From Opitutia bacterium (lineage in GTDB: Bacteria; Verrucomicrobiota; Verrucomicrobiia; Opitutales; Opitutaceae): DNA of 64,000 nucleotides. A model generated the notes under the pieces. The model was not told where the DNA came from and made no database searches. It saw nothing but the letters and a program-made list of their open reading frames with translations. The position numbers and the translations under genes were made by a program. Location of the stretch: assembly GCA_947474365.1 (NCBI GenBank), contig CANJIU010000012.1, positions 1 through 64,000 of the forward strand. The letters run 5' to 3'. Every line of letters begins with the position of its first letter. Within the stretch, counting starts at the first letter, position 1. Shown here in pieces: positions 42,840-49,977 of this stretch.

Positions 42840-44093
42840 CTATTGCGGCAGCGGTTTCCCCTTGGTCTCGGGAGCAAACCAGATGACGACGAGACCCAAG
42901 GCGTAGATCAGAGTGATGACCGCGCCGGCCTTGGCATAGCTGCCGTCAAATGTCTGCATCAGCACTCCCATCTGGAGCGCGCCGATGGCGGCAAAAATCC
43001 GGCCCGCATTGTACGACAATCCCTGCCCGGTCGCCCGCACCCGCGTCGGGAAGAGCTCCGGCAGGTAGAGCGGCAGCCATCCGTAAAATGCCGCCGTCAG
43101 GCCTCCCACCACAAACGTGAGCGCGAGAAACGGAGTGCCGTAGGAGTCGATCCCGCGGAACAGCCACGCACACGAGAGCAGCGACCCGAGACAGAGGAGA
43201 AAATACGCCAGCCGCCGGCTGATAAATCCGCCGATCCACGCGCCGAGCAAACAGCCGACCACGGCGCCCACCGCCGAACTCGCCTGCGTGTAGGCCTTCG
43301 CCGTTGGCACCGCGCCGTTCGTCATCTTGTCCGCCCAGAGCGGCAGCCATTGCACGGATCCCCAGGTGCCAATCAATGCGATCGACGAAAGCAGGATCGC
43401 CATCAGCGTCCACTTCAGCAACGGCGGCGACATCACCTCGGTGAGCGGACGGTTCGGCGTGGTGCTGTTCTTCACCGAGTCCTGCCATTTCTCGGACTCA
43501 TGCACAAACATGCTGATCGCCAGCGTCAGCAGCGCCGGCGCCGCGCCGACCAGCGCGACCCACCGCCACGATTCGATCGTTACCTTGAAAAAGAGCCCGA
43601 TCACCGCGATCGAGGCGAAGCCTACGTTGGCCGCCGCGCCGATGATTCCCGCCATGAGCGGGCGGTGCTTCTCCGGCCACACCTCCATCACGAGCGCCAC
43701 GCCGAGCGACCACTCCCCGCCCATGCCGAGTGCTGCAACGAACCGGCTGCCAGCGAGGTGCCATGGCTCGGTCGCGAAATAGATCAGACCGGTAAAGACC
43801 GAGTAGCAAAGGATGCTGAGCGACATCGCGCGTACCCGCCCAATTTTGTCCCCCAGCCAGCCAAAGACGACGCCACCCAGGGCTGCACCGATTAGAAAGG
43901 CGAACGTCGCATAGCTCATCCATTTGCCGATGAACACGTCCGTGACGGTCAGCCCGTGGGCCGCTTGAATCTGCTGCAAGGCGGGCCGCGCGATGAGCGG
44001 GAAAATGCCCATCTCCAGTCCGTCAAACATCCAGCCGAGAAAGGCGGCGGCCAGGACGGTGTAGAGCCGTAGATTGTCGTTCTTTTTTTCCAT
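42840..44093 (-). CDS. MFS transporter (sugar/acid symporter type)
   Basis: A 417-residue inner-membrane transporter of the major facilitator superfamily with 12 predicted helices. Family motifs: the loop 2-3 motif GWLGDKIGRVRAMSLSIL, the region ALGMGGEWSLGVALVME in helix 4, and the repeated motif in the second half (YLPELFPTRVRATGQGLSYN). This pattern fits the metabolite:H+ / sugar-porter-like subgroup that includes sialate and aromatic-acid carriers; the substrate cannot be read from sequence. The DUF6807 gene is immediately upstream on the same strand (42 bp), so the two are probably co-transcribed and the solute may relate to that protein's target. There is no Shine-Dalgarno sequence; the leader is pyrimidine-rich. 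Confidence 0.88.
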   Translation of the reverse strand: MEKKNDNLRLYTVLAAAFLGWMFDGLEMGIFPLIARPALQQIQAAHGLTVTDVFIGKWMSYATFAFLIGAALGGVVFGWLGDKIGRVRAMSLSILCYSVFTGLIYFATEPWHLAGSRFVAALGMGGEWSLGVALVMEVWPEKHRPLMAGIIGAAANVGFASIAVIGLFFKVTIESWRWVALVGAAPALLTLAISMFVHESEKWQDSVKNSTTPNRPLTEVMSPPLLKWTLMAILLSSIALIGTWGSVQWLPLWADKMTNGAVPTAKAYTQASSAVGAVVGCLLGAWIGGFISRRLAYFLLCLGSLLSCAWLFRGIDSYGTPFLALTFVVGGLTAAFYGWLPLYLPELFPTRVRATGQGLSYNAGRIFAAIGALQMGVLMQTFDGSYAKAGAVITLIYALGLVVIWFAPETKGKPLPQ

Positions 44094-44135: not shown

Positions 44136-45350
44136 TCAGCGCGCGGCTTCCAGCTTCACCTCAGGTTGCAGCGCATAACCGTTCCAATAAGCGTCGATCG
44201 CCCGCTGGTCCGGGGCTCCATCGCTGGCGACGAAGCGGAACCGCACTACGTAGGGCTTGCCCGGTTCAATCGCGAAGTCGCCGAGTTGCTGCGGGACATA
44301 CGACAGGTACGGCATGTTGGGATGCAGCCGCATGGGCTGCGGTGCCCGAAAATTCCCCGGATGCCCGAGAACCGCCGTGCCGGCGACGGCGCCACCGATC
44401 TGCCCGCCCAAGTAGCACCACCGCCCGCGGGTCGCGTTGCCTTTCACCCGATCAGTCTCCCCTTCCGAGGTAAGGAAAACCGCCCCGCTCTCGCCGTTCC
44501 ACTCCGCCGCCCCGCGAAAACCGAAACCACCATAATGGTACTTCGGCAGCAGCAGCGGATCGTTCGTCGCGCAAGTCTGGGTCACTTCGAGATCGAAAAC
44601 CGTTGCCGGCACACCGCCACCACCCGCCACCAGGTAGGCCGTCACTCTCCACGTCTCGTTCAGCACCGTCACCGGCGCCGGCCCTGAGAGATCGACCATC
44701 TTCAGGCGGGATTCAAAACCACCGTGCACCGGTCCACTCCAGGTCCGATCCAACGCGACGAAATCTTCCGCGCCGGTCTTCGCCTGCATGTTCCAAAAAT
44801 CCGGACTCCGTCCCTGGAAGCTCGTCTTGGTCCACGGCGACCAGATTCCGTGGTGATGGACGTGGTTCGAGGGGTAGTCATCGGTCACAATCTTTCCCGC
44901 CGGGCTGTACACCGGATGGATGTAGCCGGCGCGTTTGAACTCCGGCGCGATGTCCGCGCGCGGCAACGCTTCCCTGTCCATCTGGTAATCGAAAGCGGGC
45001 CGGCCGGCCACCAACACGCGAACGCGCTGCCGATCGGACGTCACGGCAACCCCACCGGATGCTTTCGCGGGGGCAGCCTGCAGCTGGAATTCCAGCGACT
45101 GGCCGGCCTTTTGCGCCGGCACGACCAATCGGGCGGTACCGTCACTGTCGACCTGGAGCGGATACACACCGTCCGAACCGCGCGCGCTCGTCGCCCCGCG
45201 GGCGTCAGGGGGGAGCTTCACGACAATCACCTGAGCCGCGCGATCGACGCCAACCGGCGCAACCGTCAGGCGGTAATCCCTGGCAAACGCGGACGAAACG
45301 ATGAGGGCTGCGACGGCGAGTGAGGCGGCCAGACGTCGGAAATTTTCCAT
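44136..45350 (-). CDS. DUF6807 (PmoA-family) secreted protein
   Basis: A 404-residue protein with a signal peptide (cleavage after the region ending SSAFA, about residue 23). The first 100 residues form a beta-rich domain, followed by the DUF6807/PmoA-family region with the motif DDYPSNHVHHHGIWSPW, the segment WNMQAKTGAEDF and WNGESGAVFLTSEGETDR. The family is common beside sugar-catabolism genes in Verrucomicrobia and Planctomycetes; the old name 'methane oxygenase PmoA' is misleading, and the function is unknown. The His cluster could bind metal. It is first in a likely two-gene operon with the MFS transporter. ATG 45350 gives the signal peptide; a longer open frame upstream is not protein-like. 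Confidence 0.82.
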   Translation of the reverse strand: MENFRRLAASLAVAALIVSSAFARDYRLTVAPVGVDRAAQVIVVKLPPDARGATSARGSDGVYPLQVDSDGTARLVVPAQKAGQSLEFQLQAAPAKASGGVAVTSDRQRVRVLVAGRPAFDYQMDREALPRADIAPEFKRAGYIHPVYSPAGKIVTDDYPSNHVHHHGIWSPWTKTSFQGRSPDFWNMQAKTGAEDFVALDRTWSGPVHGGFESRLKMVDLSGPAPVTVLNETWRVTAYLVAGGGGVPATVFDLEVTQTCATNDPLLLPKYHYGGFGFRGAAEWNGESGAVFLTSEGETDRVKGNATRGRWCYLGGQIGGAVAGTAVLGHPGNFRAPQPMRLHPNMPYLSYVPQQLGDFAIEPGKPYVVRFRFVASDGAPDQRAIDAYWNGYALQPEVKLEAAR

Positions 45351-45451
45351 GGAGTAGGCGACGAGCAAACCTCCACGAAGCCAGACGCCCAAGTCACATG
45401 CAAGCCTCCGCACGCGTCGATGCCCGCGCTGGGTCAGCCGCCCACTGTCTC

Positions 45452-45530
45452 GACACTGGGGACGCGACGCCACCGTCGCGTGGGCTCAAACCGCAACTTG
45501 GCCGTCACGCCCCCAAGCGCAACCGCCCAT
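45452..45530 (-). repeat. Dispersed MITE-like repeat, partial copy (inverted)
   Basis: Read on the minus strand it contains GGGGGCGTGACGG, then CCCACGCGACGGTGGCGTCGCG, split here as CCACGCGACGG and TGGCGTCGCG, and GTCCCCAGTGTCGAG. The terminal repeats are not clear. It lies between the flagellin gene's 3' end and the DUF6807 gene's 5' end. Confidence 0.6.
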
Positions 45531-45558: not shown

Positions 45559-46737
45559 TCAGCTCTGCAGGAGTTTCAGCACGGAGTTCGGCATCTGGTT
45601 CGCCTGCGCAAGCATCGCCGTGCCAGACTGGACGAGGATGTTGTACTTCGCGTATTGGGTGGACTCCTCCGCGACATCGACGTCGCGGATCCGCGAAATC
45701 GCGGACGAAAGGTTTTCGTATTCCACCTGCAGGGTGCTTGAGGCGAGCTCGAGTCGGGATTGGGAGGCGCCGAGTGACGCGCGCTCGTTGGCAACGTCCT
45801 GAATCGCATTGGTGATCTGCCCTGTCACGCCGTCAGTGGTAATGGAGAGGGTGTAGTTGCCCGCAGCATCTTGGCCGATGATATTGAGCATATCGCCATC
45901 ACGCAGGTTGATCGTCGGAATCGTCATGGTCTGACCGACCGCCTGACCGACTGTGACCGTCAGGCCCGTGCTACCAGAGGCCGACCCGGTGGCGCCGACG
46001 ACGGTTCCATCGGGAATTGGATCCGTACTATTGATCACTGCGCCCGGCTGGATCGTGACGTTGTTCCCGATAACTGCACCCGGGCACACATAGGCGTTGG
46101 CCCCAACGACGGTCCCATCGCCCACAGAGGCTGAATCGCCGATCCGTGCGCCCGCGCCCACCGTAACACCGTCCCCGAAGGTTACGCCGGAACCAATGAT
46201 CGCCCCAGCCTGCACCGTCATATTCAGGCCGGCAGTATAGGAACCGGCGGTGACACTCGGCGGGCTAATGGCGTCATCGCCAAACAGCTTGATTCCGTTG
46301 AACATTCCCAGCGGTGTCGTGATATCCTGCGCGCCGCCAATCTGGCTCTTTGTCCCGCCGATCGTCTGGCGAAGCTGGTCCTGCAACGACGAGAACTCTT
46401 TTTGGTAGAGCGCAACATCGGACGAGTTCTTGGTCACGTCCTTGGCGAGGATCGCAAGCTCACTCATGCGAGAGAGGATCTTGGTCATGCCACTCATGAA
46501 ACCGTCTGAAGTCTGGACGAGGGAGACCGCGTTCTGGACATTGGTGGTGGCGGCGCGCACCCTTTTGTTTTGGGCATCCAGTTTTTCGGAAACGGCGAGT
46601 CCGGCCGCATCGTCCGAGGGATTCACGATCTTCGAACCTGAAGAAAGCCGGCTGAGGGCGCGGCCGAGCATCTCCTGGCTGCGGTTCAAATTGCGGGCGC
46701 CGGTGATGGCCTGGATGTTGGTATTGATGACACTCAT
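45559..46737 (-). CDS. fliC: Flagellin with a hexapeptide (beta-helix-like) middle domain
   Basis: The 392-residue filament subunit. The conserved ends are normal: N-terminal D0/D1 (residues 1-145, including LSRLSSGSKIVNPSDDAAGL) and C-terminal D1/D0 (about 305-392, ending QANQMPNSVLKLLQS). The surface-exposed middle is not. Residues 173-250 form 13 uninterrupted hexapeptides (VTFGDG-VTVGAG-ARIGDS and so on) with I/V at position 3, mostly G at position 4 and A/V/T at position 1, the signature of left-handed beta-helix proteins such as LpxA. A short domain (about 256-300) follows. The gene starts 21 bp after csrA, in one operon with fliW and csrA. The leader has neither a Shine-Dalgarno sequence nor a GGA motif. 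Confidence 0.93.
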   Translation of the reverse strand: MSVINTNIQAITGARNLNRSQEMLGRALSRLSSGSKIVNPSDDAAGLAVSEKLDAQNKRVRAATTNVQNAVSLVQTSDGFMSGMTKILSRMSELAILAKDVTKNSSDVALYQKEFSSLQDQLRQTIGGTKSQIGGAQDITTPLGMFNGIKLFGDDAISPPSVTAGSYTAGLNMTVQAGAIIGSGVTFGDGVTVGAGARIGDSASVGDGTVVGANAYVCPGAVIGNNVTIQPGAVINSTDPIPDGTVVGATGSASGSTGLTVTVGQAVGQTMTIPTINLRDGDMLNIIGQDAAGNYTLSITTDGVTGQITNAIQDVANERASLGASQSRLELASSTLQVEYENLSSAISRIRDVDVAEESTQYAKYNILVQSGTAMLAQANQMPNSVLKLLQS

Positions 46738-46758: not shown

Positions 46759-47067
46759 TTACGGTTGAGGAGTAAGCGTTTTCGCCGTGGCCACGTTTGC
46801 CACAGGCTTGGAGGGCAGAATACCCGGCGCCGCGTTGGCGGCAGGTTTGGACGGAAGCAACGGCAGCACGCCGGGCTTCGTGTGCCGCACGGCGGCGGCC
46901 TGATTGCTGGCGGCGATGTCGGCGAGGACCTCCTTGCGGAAGATCGCAATCTCGCGCGGGGCGGCGATGCCGATCTTCACCACATCACCTTCAATACGCG
47001 TGATTCGGATCTCGATCGAATCACCGATGACAATCGCTTCGTTTACCCGACGGGAAAGTACAAGCAT
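46759..47067 (-). CDS. csrA: CsrA translational regulator with C-terminal extension
   Basis: A 102-residue CsrA/RsmA-type RNA-binding regulator. Residues 1-60 are a normal CsrA ([20 protein letters not shown], then [18 protein letters not shown]), a dimer that binds GGA motifs in mRNA leaders. Typical CsrA is 60-75 residues; here about 40 more residues follow, rich in Ala, Pro and Lys, with a duplicated unit [10 protein letters not shown] / [10 protein letters not shown]. In Bacillus subtilis CsrA represses flagellin translation and is held in check by FliW; the order fliW-csrA-flagellin here, with gaps of 9 and 21 bp, suggests the same circuit. No GGA site is visible in the flagellin leader, so the target may be elsewhere. 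Confidence 0.93.
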
Positions 47068-47076
47068 GGCGGGGAG

Positions 47077-47550
47077 TCAGGCTGTGCGGGCGAGCGCGGG
47101 CGCCTGCGAGTTTTCGACGAGGGAGTGATGCGCGCTGTAGCGCGAGTAGTTGGCGATGACGAGCTGGCGGCCGATCCGGGTGCGTCGGTTGACAATCAGC
47201 GGCCCGATGAGGTTGGCGGTCGCCTCGACCGGGTGCTGCCGCTGCAGCGTGACGATGTTGAGCACCATCGCCTCGGCGGGATCGCGCAGATCCAATTGTT
47301 CCGCGTCGCCATCGAAAATCTCCGGTTCATAGCCGGGCACGATTCCACCGGGCTCAATCACGATGAAATGGAGCTGATCGTGTTCCGTCGGCCCCTGGAG
47401 CTTCATCCAGAGAAACGGCAGGTGATCAGGGAGGTAGAGGAGCTCGGCCCGCTTGTACTGGGCAAAGCCAATCAGTCCGTACGGCAGTTCGAGTTCATTG
47501 GCGGGCGGAATGTCGAGGTCGGTCGGATAGAGTTCAGGCAGGACTTTCAT
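47077..47550 (-). CDS. fliW: Flagellar assembly factor FliW
   Basis: A 157-residue cytoplasmic protein that binds flagellin and, when free, binds CsrA and blocks its repression. Typical FliW features are LPYGLIGFAQYKRAELLYL near residue 23, FLWMKLQGP, FIVIEPGGIVPGYEPEI and the C-terminal ATANLIGPLIVNRRTRIGRQ. The C-terminal tail after about residue 145 (SQAPALARTA) is probably flexible. It is placed between flgL (48 bp upstream) and csrA (9 bp downstream). Length is normal for the family. Confidence 0.93.
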   Translation of the reverse strand: MKVLPELYPTDLDIPPANELELPYGLIGFAQYKRAELLYLPDHLPFLWMKLQGPTEHDQLHFIVIEPGGIVPGYEPEIFDGDAEQLDLRDPAEAMVLNIVTLQRQHPVEATANLIGPLIVNRRTRIGRQLVIANYSRYSAHHSLVENSQAPALARTA

Positions 47551-47598: not shown

Positions 47599-48495
47599 TT
47601 ACTTGATGTAGTCGAGCAGCGAAATGCGCATGATGTTGGCGGCCGATTGCAGCGCGGCCTGATACGCCGTCTGGTTCTGGTTGAGCCGGACGATGGTGGA
47701 CGGAAGATCGGCGTCGGTCTCGGTGGAAACCAACGTTTCGAGGCTGTCGCCCCGTTGTTGAAGTTGGGCGCGGCTCGCCTGGATCCGGGTCTGAATTCCA
47801 CCGTGATCCGCGATGGCGGAAACGAGACCATCCTCGCTCGCCACCAATCCGGTTTGGATGTCGGCAAGTTGAGACGAGTTTCCGGACGAGAGTGAATCCC
47901 GCAGGGCGGCCAAATGATTGAGGAAATCTCCCAGGCCACGATTCATCGTTCCCGGCGAACCCGGGGTGACGCTGGCATTGTTGGAGAGTTGAATCGGCGC
48001 TTGATTGTCATTTCCCACATAGCTCACTGCAGTGACATTTCCCTGCGCGTCGCGCGTGGCCGCAAAGGGTGTCGCGTCCACCGCGGTGCCGGCAAAAAGT
48101 GAGTCGTTGCGAAATTTTGTATTGGAGAGTTCCAGCGTCTGACCGATTAACTGATTGACCTCGGCGGCGTAGGCACGGGACGACTCGGGACTGATGATAC
48201 CGCCGGCGAGCGTGCCGATCTCGGTCGCACGGTCGCAGACTTTCTTGATTTCTTGGAGCGTGGAATAGGTCGCCTGACTCAACTCAAGCGCGTGATCCGC
48301 GTTGCTCGTGAACTGCGCGACTTGGCGTTGCTCGCTTTCGAGTCCCAGCACGCGGCCCACGGCCGCCGGATCATCCTCGGCCTGGAATAGCTTCTGCCCT
48401 GTCGCAACCTGGGTCTGCAGCTTGGACTGATTCTCGCTCAAATGCTGGATTTGCCGGACAATGCCCTCGGAAAGCGTGTTGTTGGTGATGCGCAT
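47599..48495 (-). CDS. flgL: Flagellar hook-filament junction protein FlgL
   Basis: The 298-residue hook-associated protein 3, which joins the hook to the filament together with FlgK. It has the flagellin-like N-terminal helix (MRITNNTLSEGIVRQIQHLS), SKLQTQVATGQKLFQAEDDP, and a C-terminal helix ending IMRISLLDYIK. It is shorter than E. coli FlgL (317) but within range. It follows flgK after 69 bp and precedes fliW. It is secreted by the flagellar export apparatus, so no signal peptide is expected or seen. Confidence 0.92.
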   Translation of the reverse strand: MRITNNTLSEGIVRQIQHLSENQSKLQTQVATGQKLFQAEDDPAAVGRVLGLESEQRQVAQFTSNADHALELSQATYSTLQEIKKVCDRATEIGTLAGGIISPESSRAYAAEVNQLIGQTLELSNTKFRNDSLFAGTAVDATPFAATRDAQGNVTAVSYVGNDNQAPIQLSNNASVTPGSPGTMNRGLGDFLNHLAALRDSLSSGNSSQLADIQTGLVASEDGLVSAIADHGGIQTRIQASRAQLQQRGDSLETLVSTETDADLPSTIVRLNQNQTAYQAALQSAANIMRISLLDYIK

Positions 48496-48564: not shown

Positions 48565-49977
48565 TCAGCGACTCAACCGGTTGACGACAACGTCGAGAAG
48601 GTCATCCATCACGGTAAAAACGCGCGAGGAAGCCTGGAAGGCGCGCTGGTACTTCATCAGGTCCGCCATCTCCTCATCGAGCGAAACGCCGCTCACACCA
48701 TCGCGCTGGGTCCGAACCAATTGCTCGATGTTCGACTGGTCATCGACCCGGGAGTTGGCGGCGGAAAGCGCCTGCCCGAGCTTGCTGACGGAGTTGGAGA
48801 AGTGGCTGGAAAACGTGCCGTCGATATGATCTCCATTCGCGGTGGAGAATTGGTGATCCGCCAGCCGCGCCACCGCGAGCGCGATGCTGTTGTCGCCGGC
48901 GACACCGCTGTCGTTGGCCTTCAGTGTGCTCGCGGTGACAGTGTTGACGACCGAGATTGCGCCCGCGGAGGTACCGGTGGATTTGAAGAAGTCTCCGGTC
49001 GTACCTGTCGGATTGTAGGTGGCATTCACCGACGTGACGAGTTGGCGGGCAAGTTGATCGAGATCGTTCCGCAGCGTCTGCACCGCCCCATCCCGCGCCG
49101 CAATCGCACCCTTGATTGAACCGGAACTCGGGTCGAGCTGGACGGCGGCGTCACCCGCAGTGAGCCGGGTGCCATCGAAGGCGATTTTTCCCGTCACGGC
49201 AGTCAAATCAACCAGCAGCGTGTCGCTGCCGTTGGTGTCCTTCGCCACAATCTGGACTTCGCCGTTGGAAGAATTCCGGACCTCGACCGGGAGTTTGGCT
49301 GACAGGGCTTCGATTTGCGCCTGGCGCTGATCCCGCAGGTCGACCGCGGATCCGGGGGCGTTGACCTCGAAGCGCCCGATCTGCGCGTTCAGTTCGGCGA
49401 TGGCAGTCAGACGGCGGTTGACCTCGTCGACGTCGATCGCGGCCGCGGAATTGAGGTCACTTTGAACCTGGGCCAGTCGGGTGTCGGCGAGTTGAAAACG
49501 ATCGGTGAGAATCGCCGCTTTCTGCAACAACGTCTCCCGCTCGCCGTCATCGGTCGGTCGCGAAGCGAAACTTTGAAAGCTGTTGAAGAAGTCGTCCAAC
49601 GACGCGGCGAGTCCGGTTCCGGCGTTCGAACCCACGCCCGTGGTGGCGGAGGAGCGGTCGATGCTCTGTCCGAGACCGGCCTGGGCGCGTTGATACCCGC
49701 TCTGCTCCGCCAGGTAGGAGGATTTCAACGCCACCTCGCGGCAGACCTGCTGATCGAGCAGCGCATCCCGGATTTGGGTGACGCCGAGCGCCTCCAACCC
49801 GAGACTTTCGGCGCCCGTTGCCGTGACGACCGTGCCGCGATCGCCGTACAGGACCCGCTGGCGCGCGTAGTCTGCGTTGTTCACATTCGCGAGATTTTTA
49901 CCCGCAATCTCAATCGCGCGACTGTGGGCAGTGAGCGCTTTGACGGACGAATTGAGACTGGAGAAAAGACCGGACAC
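48565..49977 (-). CDS. flgK: Flagellar hook-filament junction protein FlgK
   Basis: The 470-residue hook-associated protein 1. The N-terminal signature is SLNSSVKALTAHSRAIEIAG, then KNLANVNNADYARQRV, and the C-terminal helix is MADLMKYQRAFQASSRVFTV followed by MDDLLDVVVNRL, both standard. The middle is variable. The start codon is GTG at 49977 without a Shine-Dalgarno sequence. It is 34 bp downstream of flgN, whose product is its export chaperone. Confidence 0.93.
   Translation of the reverse strand: MSGLFSSLNSSVKALTAHSRAIEIAGKNLANVNNADYARQRVLYGDRGTVVTATGAESLGLEALGVTQIRDALLDQQVCREVALKSSYLAEQSGYQRAQAGLGQSIDRSSATTGVGSNAGTGLAASLDDFFNSFQSFASRPTDDGERETLLQKAAILTDRFQLADTRLAQVQSDLNSAAAIDVDEVNRRLTAIAELNAQIGRFEVNAPGSAVDLRDQRQAQIEALSAKLPVEVRNSSNGEVQIVAKDTNGSDTLLVDLTAVTGKIAFDGTRLTAGDAAVQLDPSSGSIKGAIAARDGAVQTLRNDLDQLARQLVTSVNATYNPTGTTGDFFKSTGTSAGAISVVNTVTASTLKANDSGVAGDNSIALAVARLADHQFSTANGDHIDGTFSSHFSNSVSKLGQALSAANSRVDDQSNIEQLVRTQRDGVSGVSLDEEMADLMKYQRAFQASSRVFTVMDDLLDVVVNRLSR

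Follow-up and report, generated by a model that had tools for sequence, protein, structure and literature searches.

We analysed a window of 64,000 nucleotides (positions 1 to 64,000 of contig CANJIU010000012.1, assembly GCA_947474365.1) from a bacterium related to the Opitutaceae. On the minus strand of the window, at 45559..46737, lies a fliC-type flagellin gene that starts with ATG, encodes 392 amino acids and is the terminal gene of the host's flagellar row. Pfam recognised Flagellin_N at residues 4-124 (1.2e-23, 84.2 bits, cut-off 26.6) and Flagellin_C at residues 307-390 (4.8e-27, 94.5 bits, cut-off 23). With both end domains over cut-off, the protein is a bacterial flagellin by this domain test. 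An earlier note on this DNA had called the flanking D0/D1 domains standard flagellin, and both Pfam and the alignment of orthologues agree. The N-terminal D0/D1 half (residues 1-155, 46273..46737, minus strand) aligns as one block with orthologues and ends at about residue 154-157. The C-terminal D1/D0 half (residues 255-392, 45562..45975, minus strand) forms a second block that starts at about residue 252-260. Between the two halves lies a segment with its linkers (residues 156-254, 45976..46272, minus strand), which very probably represents an inserted, non-catalytic, left-handed beta-helix outer domain of the flagellin. Four things were computed, namely the hexapeptide units, the fold prediction, the lack of histidine and the status of the segment as an insertion when compared with orthologues. 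We infer that the domain was gained once, that it is displayed on the filament (from the architecture of flagellins) and what its role is.

Residues 173-250 divide without a gap into 13 hexads (MTVQAG, AIIGSG, VTFGDG, VTVGAG, ARIGDS, ASVGDG, TVVGAN, AYVCPG, AVIGNN, VTIQPG, AVINST, DPIPDG and TVVGAT), which occupy exactly 45988..46221 on the minus strand, as the earlier note had placed them. Its description of the pattern was likewise accurate. Of the 13 hexads, 12 have V or I at the third position and one has F; G occupies position 4 in 8/13, and position 1 holds A, V or T in 11/13. The array was compared with composition-preserving shuffles of the 100-residue insert (residues 156-255), using the longest 6-periodic hydrophobic run as the statistic. 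None of 200,000 shuffles reached the run of 13, and the shuffle maximum was 10. A second statistic, hydrophobic then G in a single phase, gave an observed value of 8 that was matched by 1/200,000. Pfam Hexapep matched two separate parts of the region between the flagellin ends (1.1e-13, 50.6 bits, cut-off 27). At the level of sequence, the insert thus has what identifies a left-handed beta-helix, namely tandem I/V/L hexads and a Hexapep score over cut-off.

The hexads are not DNA repeats, because their codons vary and 45850-46350 yielded no direct-repeat family other than a single 26-nt pair. Its copies (45987..46012 and 46095-46120) are 85% identical and lie 108 nt apart, which equals six hexads. 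This pair may be a small internal duplication that gave rise to the tail DGTVVGAT at the end of the helix. An origin of the array by tandem growth of hexads is unsupported, given this single direct repeat. The G+C content of the insert is 64.0%, compared with 57.4% and 59.9% in the flanks and 63.3% in the window. The largest difference is at codon position 2 (60.6% versus 42.6% and 43.5%), as expected from the many Gly and Ala residues. At codon position 3 the insert is lower than its flanks (68.7% versus 76.1% and 77.5%).

Comparison with related flagellins defined the segment as an insertion. The 18 aligned orthologues (among loci L035-L055) belong to the D0/D1-only flagellins of Opitutaceae and their kin. 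They are 62-81% identical to the window protein, but are only 282-297 residues long and lack an outer domain. In these proteins a few residues separate the LFG region from GLTVTIGQ or a similar motif, and at this place the window protein is longer by about 97. Where both halves of an orthologue passed E 1e-40 in the family search, they aligned as adjoining blocks, one ending at about residue 155 and the other starting at about residue 255. The extra residues of two Bacillota flagellins that have an outer region (L056, L060) fall in the same alignment columns as the insert. The arrangement is that of an inserted-domain flagellin, with a foreign domain between conserved ends. A tree of the core puts the window protein into a group of 35 rows with support 95/85, in which all other rows are insert-less orthologues. 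The tree does not fix its exact neighbours, and its branch is long (0.27). Since 18 close orthologues do not have the segment, the simplest account would be a single domain gain on the window lineage.

The insert is predicted to fold as a triangular left-handed beta-helix. Modelled alone and without homologues, it gave a confident left-handed beta-helix, the best model having a mean pLDDT of 89.5. In this model a bridge is present already at residues 167-168 and the coil runs to about residue 247, so that the helix spans about residues 167-247. Coils of such helices are spaced by about 4.8 Å, so that about four coils would put the ends of the modelled helix some 20 Å apart. In the full-length model, bridges at every six residues run from about 174 to 235 and about 11 hexads are formed. 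The best matches of the insert in the PDB were hexapeptide enzymes, and it superimposed on hexapeptide acyltransferases with 0.9 Å over 71 columns. In a viral structure library, hexapeptide and acetyltransferase entries were among the matches. A second structural comparison (VIA-align) had no flagellin among the 50 matches listed, a result that excludes nothing. No flagellin D2/D3 family was found in the 392-residue protein by Pfam up to E 10; such a match would have spoken against the beta-helix. The left-handed beta-helix proposed in the earlier note is therefore supported by the Hexapep score, the insert-alone model and the structural matches, and prediction of the monomer returned the expected helix, with high confidence for the insert alone. 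Its size of about four coils was right, as 13 hexads correspond to 4.3 coils. The word "perfect" is a little too strong for the 13 gapless units, since DPIPDG is a poor hexad and the full-length model does not bridge all of them. A Gly/Ser-rich stretch follows at residues 251-257, by which the chain may lead back to D1.

The structural matches raise the question of catalysis. Hexapeptide acyltransferases and gamma-carbonic anhydrases need histidine, either as a base or as a zinc ligand. The 392-residue protein does not contain a single histidine, and the insert is also devoid of lysine and glutamate. Because those enzymes depend on histidine, acyltransferase or gamma-carbonic-anhydrase activity of the insert appears very unlikely. 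Among the acyltransferases, LpxD ranked first in NCBIfam (PRK00892, 54.2 bits against a cut-off of 207, ungapped over 79 residues; TIGR01853, 48.0 bits against 242.5), followed by LpxA (45.5 bits) and NeuD (38.9 bits). The hexad pattern and the fold are common to all of them. However, the insert corresponds to the helix part of LpxD only, and it is far short of the cut-off of every enzyme model. The N-terminal domain of LpxD (PF04613) was absent from the Pfam matches of the flagellin up to E 10. An identity as LpxD acyltransferase was rejected on these grounds, with scores under the curated cut-offs and both PF04613 and the catalytic histidine missing. Gamma-carbonic anhydrases (1v3w and others) share the left-handed beta-helix with the insert, but bind zinc through three histidines, none of which it could provide, and this identity was rejected as well. 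Flagellins with enzymatic domains do exist, as described in the available text of PMC5595980, and an active hexapeptide acyltransferase or gamma-carbonic anhydrase might be carried on the flagellum in the manner of the proteolytic flagellins. The insert does match such enzymes in sequence and fold, yet with no histidine in the protein and scores this far below the models, we regard a displayed enzyme as scarcely credible. The metallopeptidase flagellins in the accessible parts of PMC5595980 are alike in having a foreign in-frame domain in the hypervariable region, and differ in that the insert has no active-site residues. An enzymatic flagellin of that kind was rejected, as the active-site motif is not kept and histidine is missing.

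The high rank of LpxD was followed by tests of hexad order. Against a first set of 24 LpxD-like sequences the insert scored 60.3 bits, which none of 1000 permutations attained (maximum 55.5), but this set had been gathered by searching with the insert itself and is hence biased. With 30 LpxD loci selected through PF04613, the domain at their N-terminus, the score was 28.8 bits and was reached by 255/1000 permutations. Descent from the family's own LpxD is unsupported by this unbiased control. The score against 30 LpxA loci (PF13720) was 26.3 bits and was reached by 8/1000 permutations, slightly better than for LpxD. Within the genome, the best-matching other hexapeptide gene shares 46% identity with part of the insert (E 4.1e-6), and a resident gene was rejected as recent donor on this basis. 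The insert belongs to the hexapeptide superfamily, and these comparisons single out no member of it as donor.

No second flagellin of this type was detected. Among 167 distinct flagellin-like frames from all loci fetched, which include some partial or repeated genes, the longest hydrophobic 6-periodic run was 13 (the window gene). The next was 7, in two frames of L104, and all remaining frames had 5 or less. The family set comprised 252 genomes, of which 82, including the genome itself, had a match at 1e-40. The order set overlaps it and comprised 372 genomes, with a match at 1e-30 in 42, again including its own. Six other matches in the family genomes spanned the insert region (G030, G068, G085, G158, G134, G199) and all were non-hexad. 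The three further spanning matches in the order genomes (G668, G152, G053) lacked hexads as well. A search of Opitutaceae flagellins for similar inserts, which the earlier note had suggested, thus found none in the 252 family genomes beyond the window gene. The named loci numbered 78, taken from the best 80 of 352 relatives. Pfam was run on 75 of these flagellins together with the query, leaving out the short frames of L082 (102 aa), L095 (151 aa) and L112 (99 aa). Hexapep was found in the query alone (1/76) and in none of the 75 relatives scanned.

The insert alone was also used as query. It matched 35 of 387 phylum genomes at E 1e-8 and 15 of 150 family genomes at 1e-6, its own genome included in both. 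In the loci from the insert and own-genome hexapeptide searches (L117-L168 and L191-L204), the only flagellin-like frames were L118, L131 and L144, all of which are the window gene. For phylum matches beyond these loci, only frame lengths were seen. All searches start from the window protein, so a weakly similar hexapeptide flagellin that arose independently could be missed. Other middle regions were encountered. Five family flagellins (L205, L206, L209, L281, L285) have a different, Ser/Thr- and Gly-rich middle of about 130-150 residues. Their motifs are similar by eye, and Pfam recognised only the flagellin ends in the two that were scanned. In the same order, the frame of L116 (G053 contig C154) has 816 residues, with the ends of a flagellin on either side of a very large middle.

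Several points weigh against an inserted beta-helix domain with a role on the filament. The five insert-alone models varied in mean pLDDT from 70.7 to 89.5. In the full-length model the helix region reached only about 65, and the linkers as well as residues 237-256 were below 50. Display and function of the prism are proposals. The insert is known from one genome only, and conservation therefore offers no sign that it is under selection. The contamination estimate of this genome is 7.44%. With 275 contigs and a single case at hand, a piece of a hexapeptide-enzyme gene could have been misjoined into fliC during assembly. Such an artefact is very improbable, since both joints are in frame without stops, the genome has no resident gene that was simply copied in, and the G+C content of the insert is close to that of the window. 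The insertion might also be tolerated and functionless. Its occurrence in one genome favours this, as does the dispensability of outer domains for E. coli motility reported in the available text of PMC12445082. However, the hexad pattern is intact despite differing codons, which would not be expected of a stretch that had been neutral for long, should the insertion be old. We consider absence of function improbable.

In our preferred account, that of an inserted outer domain, a D0/D1-only flagellin would have gained about 97-99 residues in frame at the outer loop of D1, the site of D2/D3 elsewhere. The segment would fold to a left-handed beta-helix of about four coils, a short prism held by flexible linkers. 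It would be exported and polymerised with the flagellin, which would place one prism per such subunit on the filament surface. Known filaments turn the outer loop of D1 towards the medium, and exposure of the prism is most likely for this reason. The prism would keep the hexapeptide scaffold without an enzyme role and would have a passive job, giving the filament an exterior with another shape, other contacts and another recognisability for whatever it meets (phages, predators, surfaces or other filaments). We infer such passive reshaping as the most likely role, though only tentatively, and judge it ahead of specific binding, followed by an ordered stiffening layer and then by no function. 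The purposes suggested in the earlier note (adhesion, filament packing, cation binding or surface shielding) are likewise conjectural.

Flagella are known to adhere. If the prism bound a specific ligand (a polysaccharide, a mineral or a host surface), its exposed repetitive beta surface would make the flagellum an adhesin. Hexapeptide arrays also occur in L165 (G033 contig C338), a large predicted extracellular protein from a family genome with calcium-binding-like repeats, which can be counted in favour. On the other hand, no known binding family beyond the hexapeptide models matched the insert, charged or aromatic residues are few (5 D, 1 R, 2 Y, 1 F), and there are no relatives to reveal a conserved patch. 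We therefore hold specific binding to be unlikely. The 1653-residue frame of L165 consists of aspartate-rich repeats followed by a long hexapeptide-like array, and would place hexapeptide coils in another, apparently non-enzymatic and probably extracellular setting.

Contacts between prisms were considered as well. Hexapeptide enzymes are commonly trimers, and the sole cysteine of the flagellin, C218 in hexad AYVCPG (codon at 46084..46086, minus strand), lies inside the prism and could in principle cross-link neighbours. Prisms that touch might pack into a regular layer and in this way stiffen the filament or give it its shape. Something similar is reported for other flagellins in the available text of PMC12445082, whose outer domains dimerise or tetramerise and give screw-like surfaces. 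Against this, the linkers are predicted to be flexible, and two more flagellins without the insert in the same genome may dilute the array, so an ordered layer seems rather unlikely. The hexapeptide-enzyme scaffold might even be re-used as an inert or ligand-binding block of an extracellular polymer, with left-handed beta-helix prisms arrayed regularly over the filament and possibly packed into an ordered sheath, but this picture is unlikely too. The two additional flagellins are encoded on contig C133 (270 residues and 265, the latter running off the contig end), and neither has a hexad run.

A foreign domain at the outer-domain site of a flagellin is of a known kind. The available text of PMC5595980 surveys 26,587 flagellins with 61 inserted domain types, and its Table 1 has no hexapeptide domain among the ten commonest. 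According to the accessible parts of PMC12445082 and PMC7018530, outer domains differ in sequence and in size, some species have none, and recombination exchanges them. A limited literature search, with most subscription journals beyond reach, found no description of a left-handed beta-helix as flagellin outer domain. Mapping of the folds that can travel through the flagellar channel unfolded and refold on the filament is still in progress. With its four coils, such a beta-helix is a small and rigid fold that is easy to alter. If truly displayed, the prism would be a natural test case for beta-solenoid export and folding at the filament tip, and would mean that a single step can give an outer domain to a bare-filament lineage.

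The flagellin gene ends a row of genes on one strand in the order flgK, flgL-like, fliW, csrA and fliC, as assigned by Pfam. Next upstream of fliC is csrA (46759..47067, minus strand, CsrA 1.2e-21), preceded by fliW (47077..47550, minus strand, FliW 4.3e-28). The flgL-like gene (47599..48495, minus strand) owes its name to its position and a Flagellin_N match (9.6e-13), and flgK lies at 48565..49977 (minus strand, FlgK_D1 5.1e-38). With a crude motif, 12/20 of the loci L035-L054 showed a csrA-like start upstream of the flagellin, which in L047 lies about 1 kb away. The row stops at fliC, because a DUF6807 protein (44136-45473) and an MFS transporter (42840-44093) come next on the minus strand. 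On G000 contig C26 (98037-98189, minus strand), an isolated flagellin C-terminal fragment in a 54-residue frame corresponds to residues 341-391 of the query at 69% identity and is perhaps a relic.
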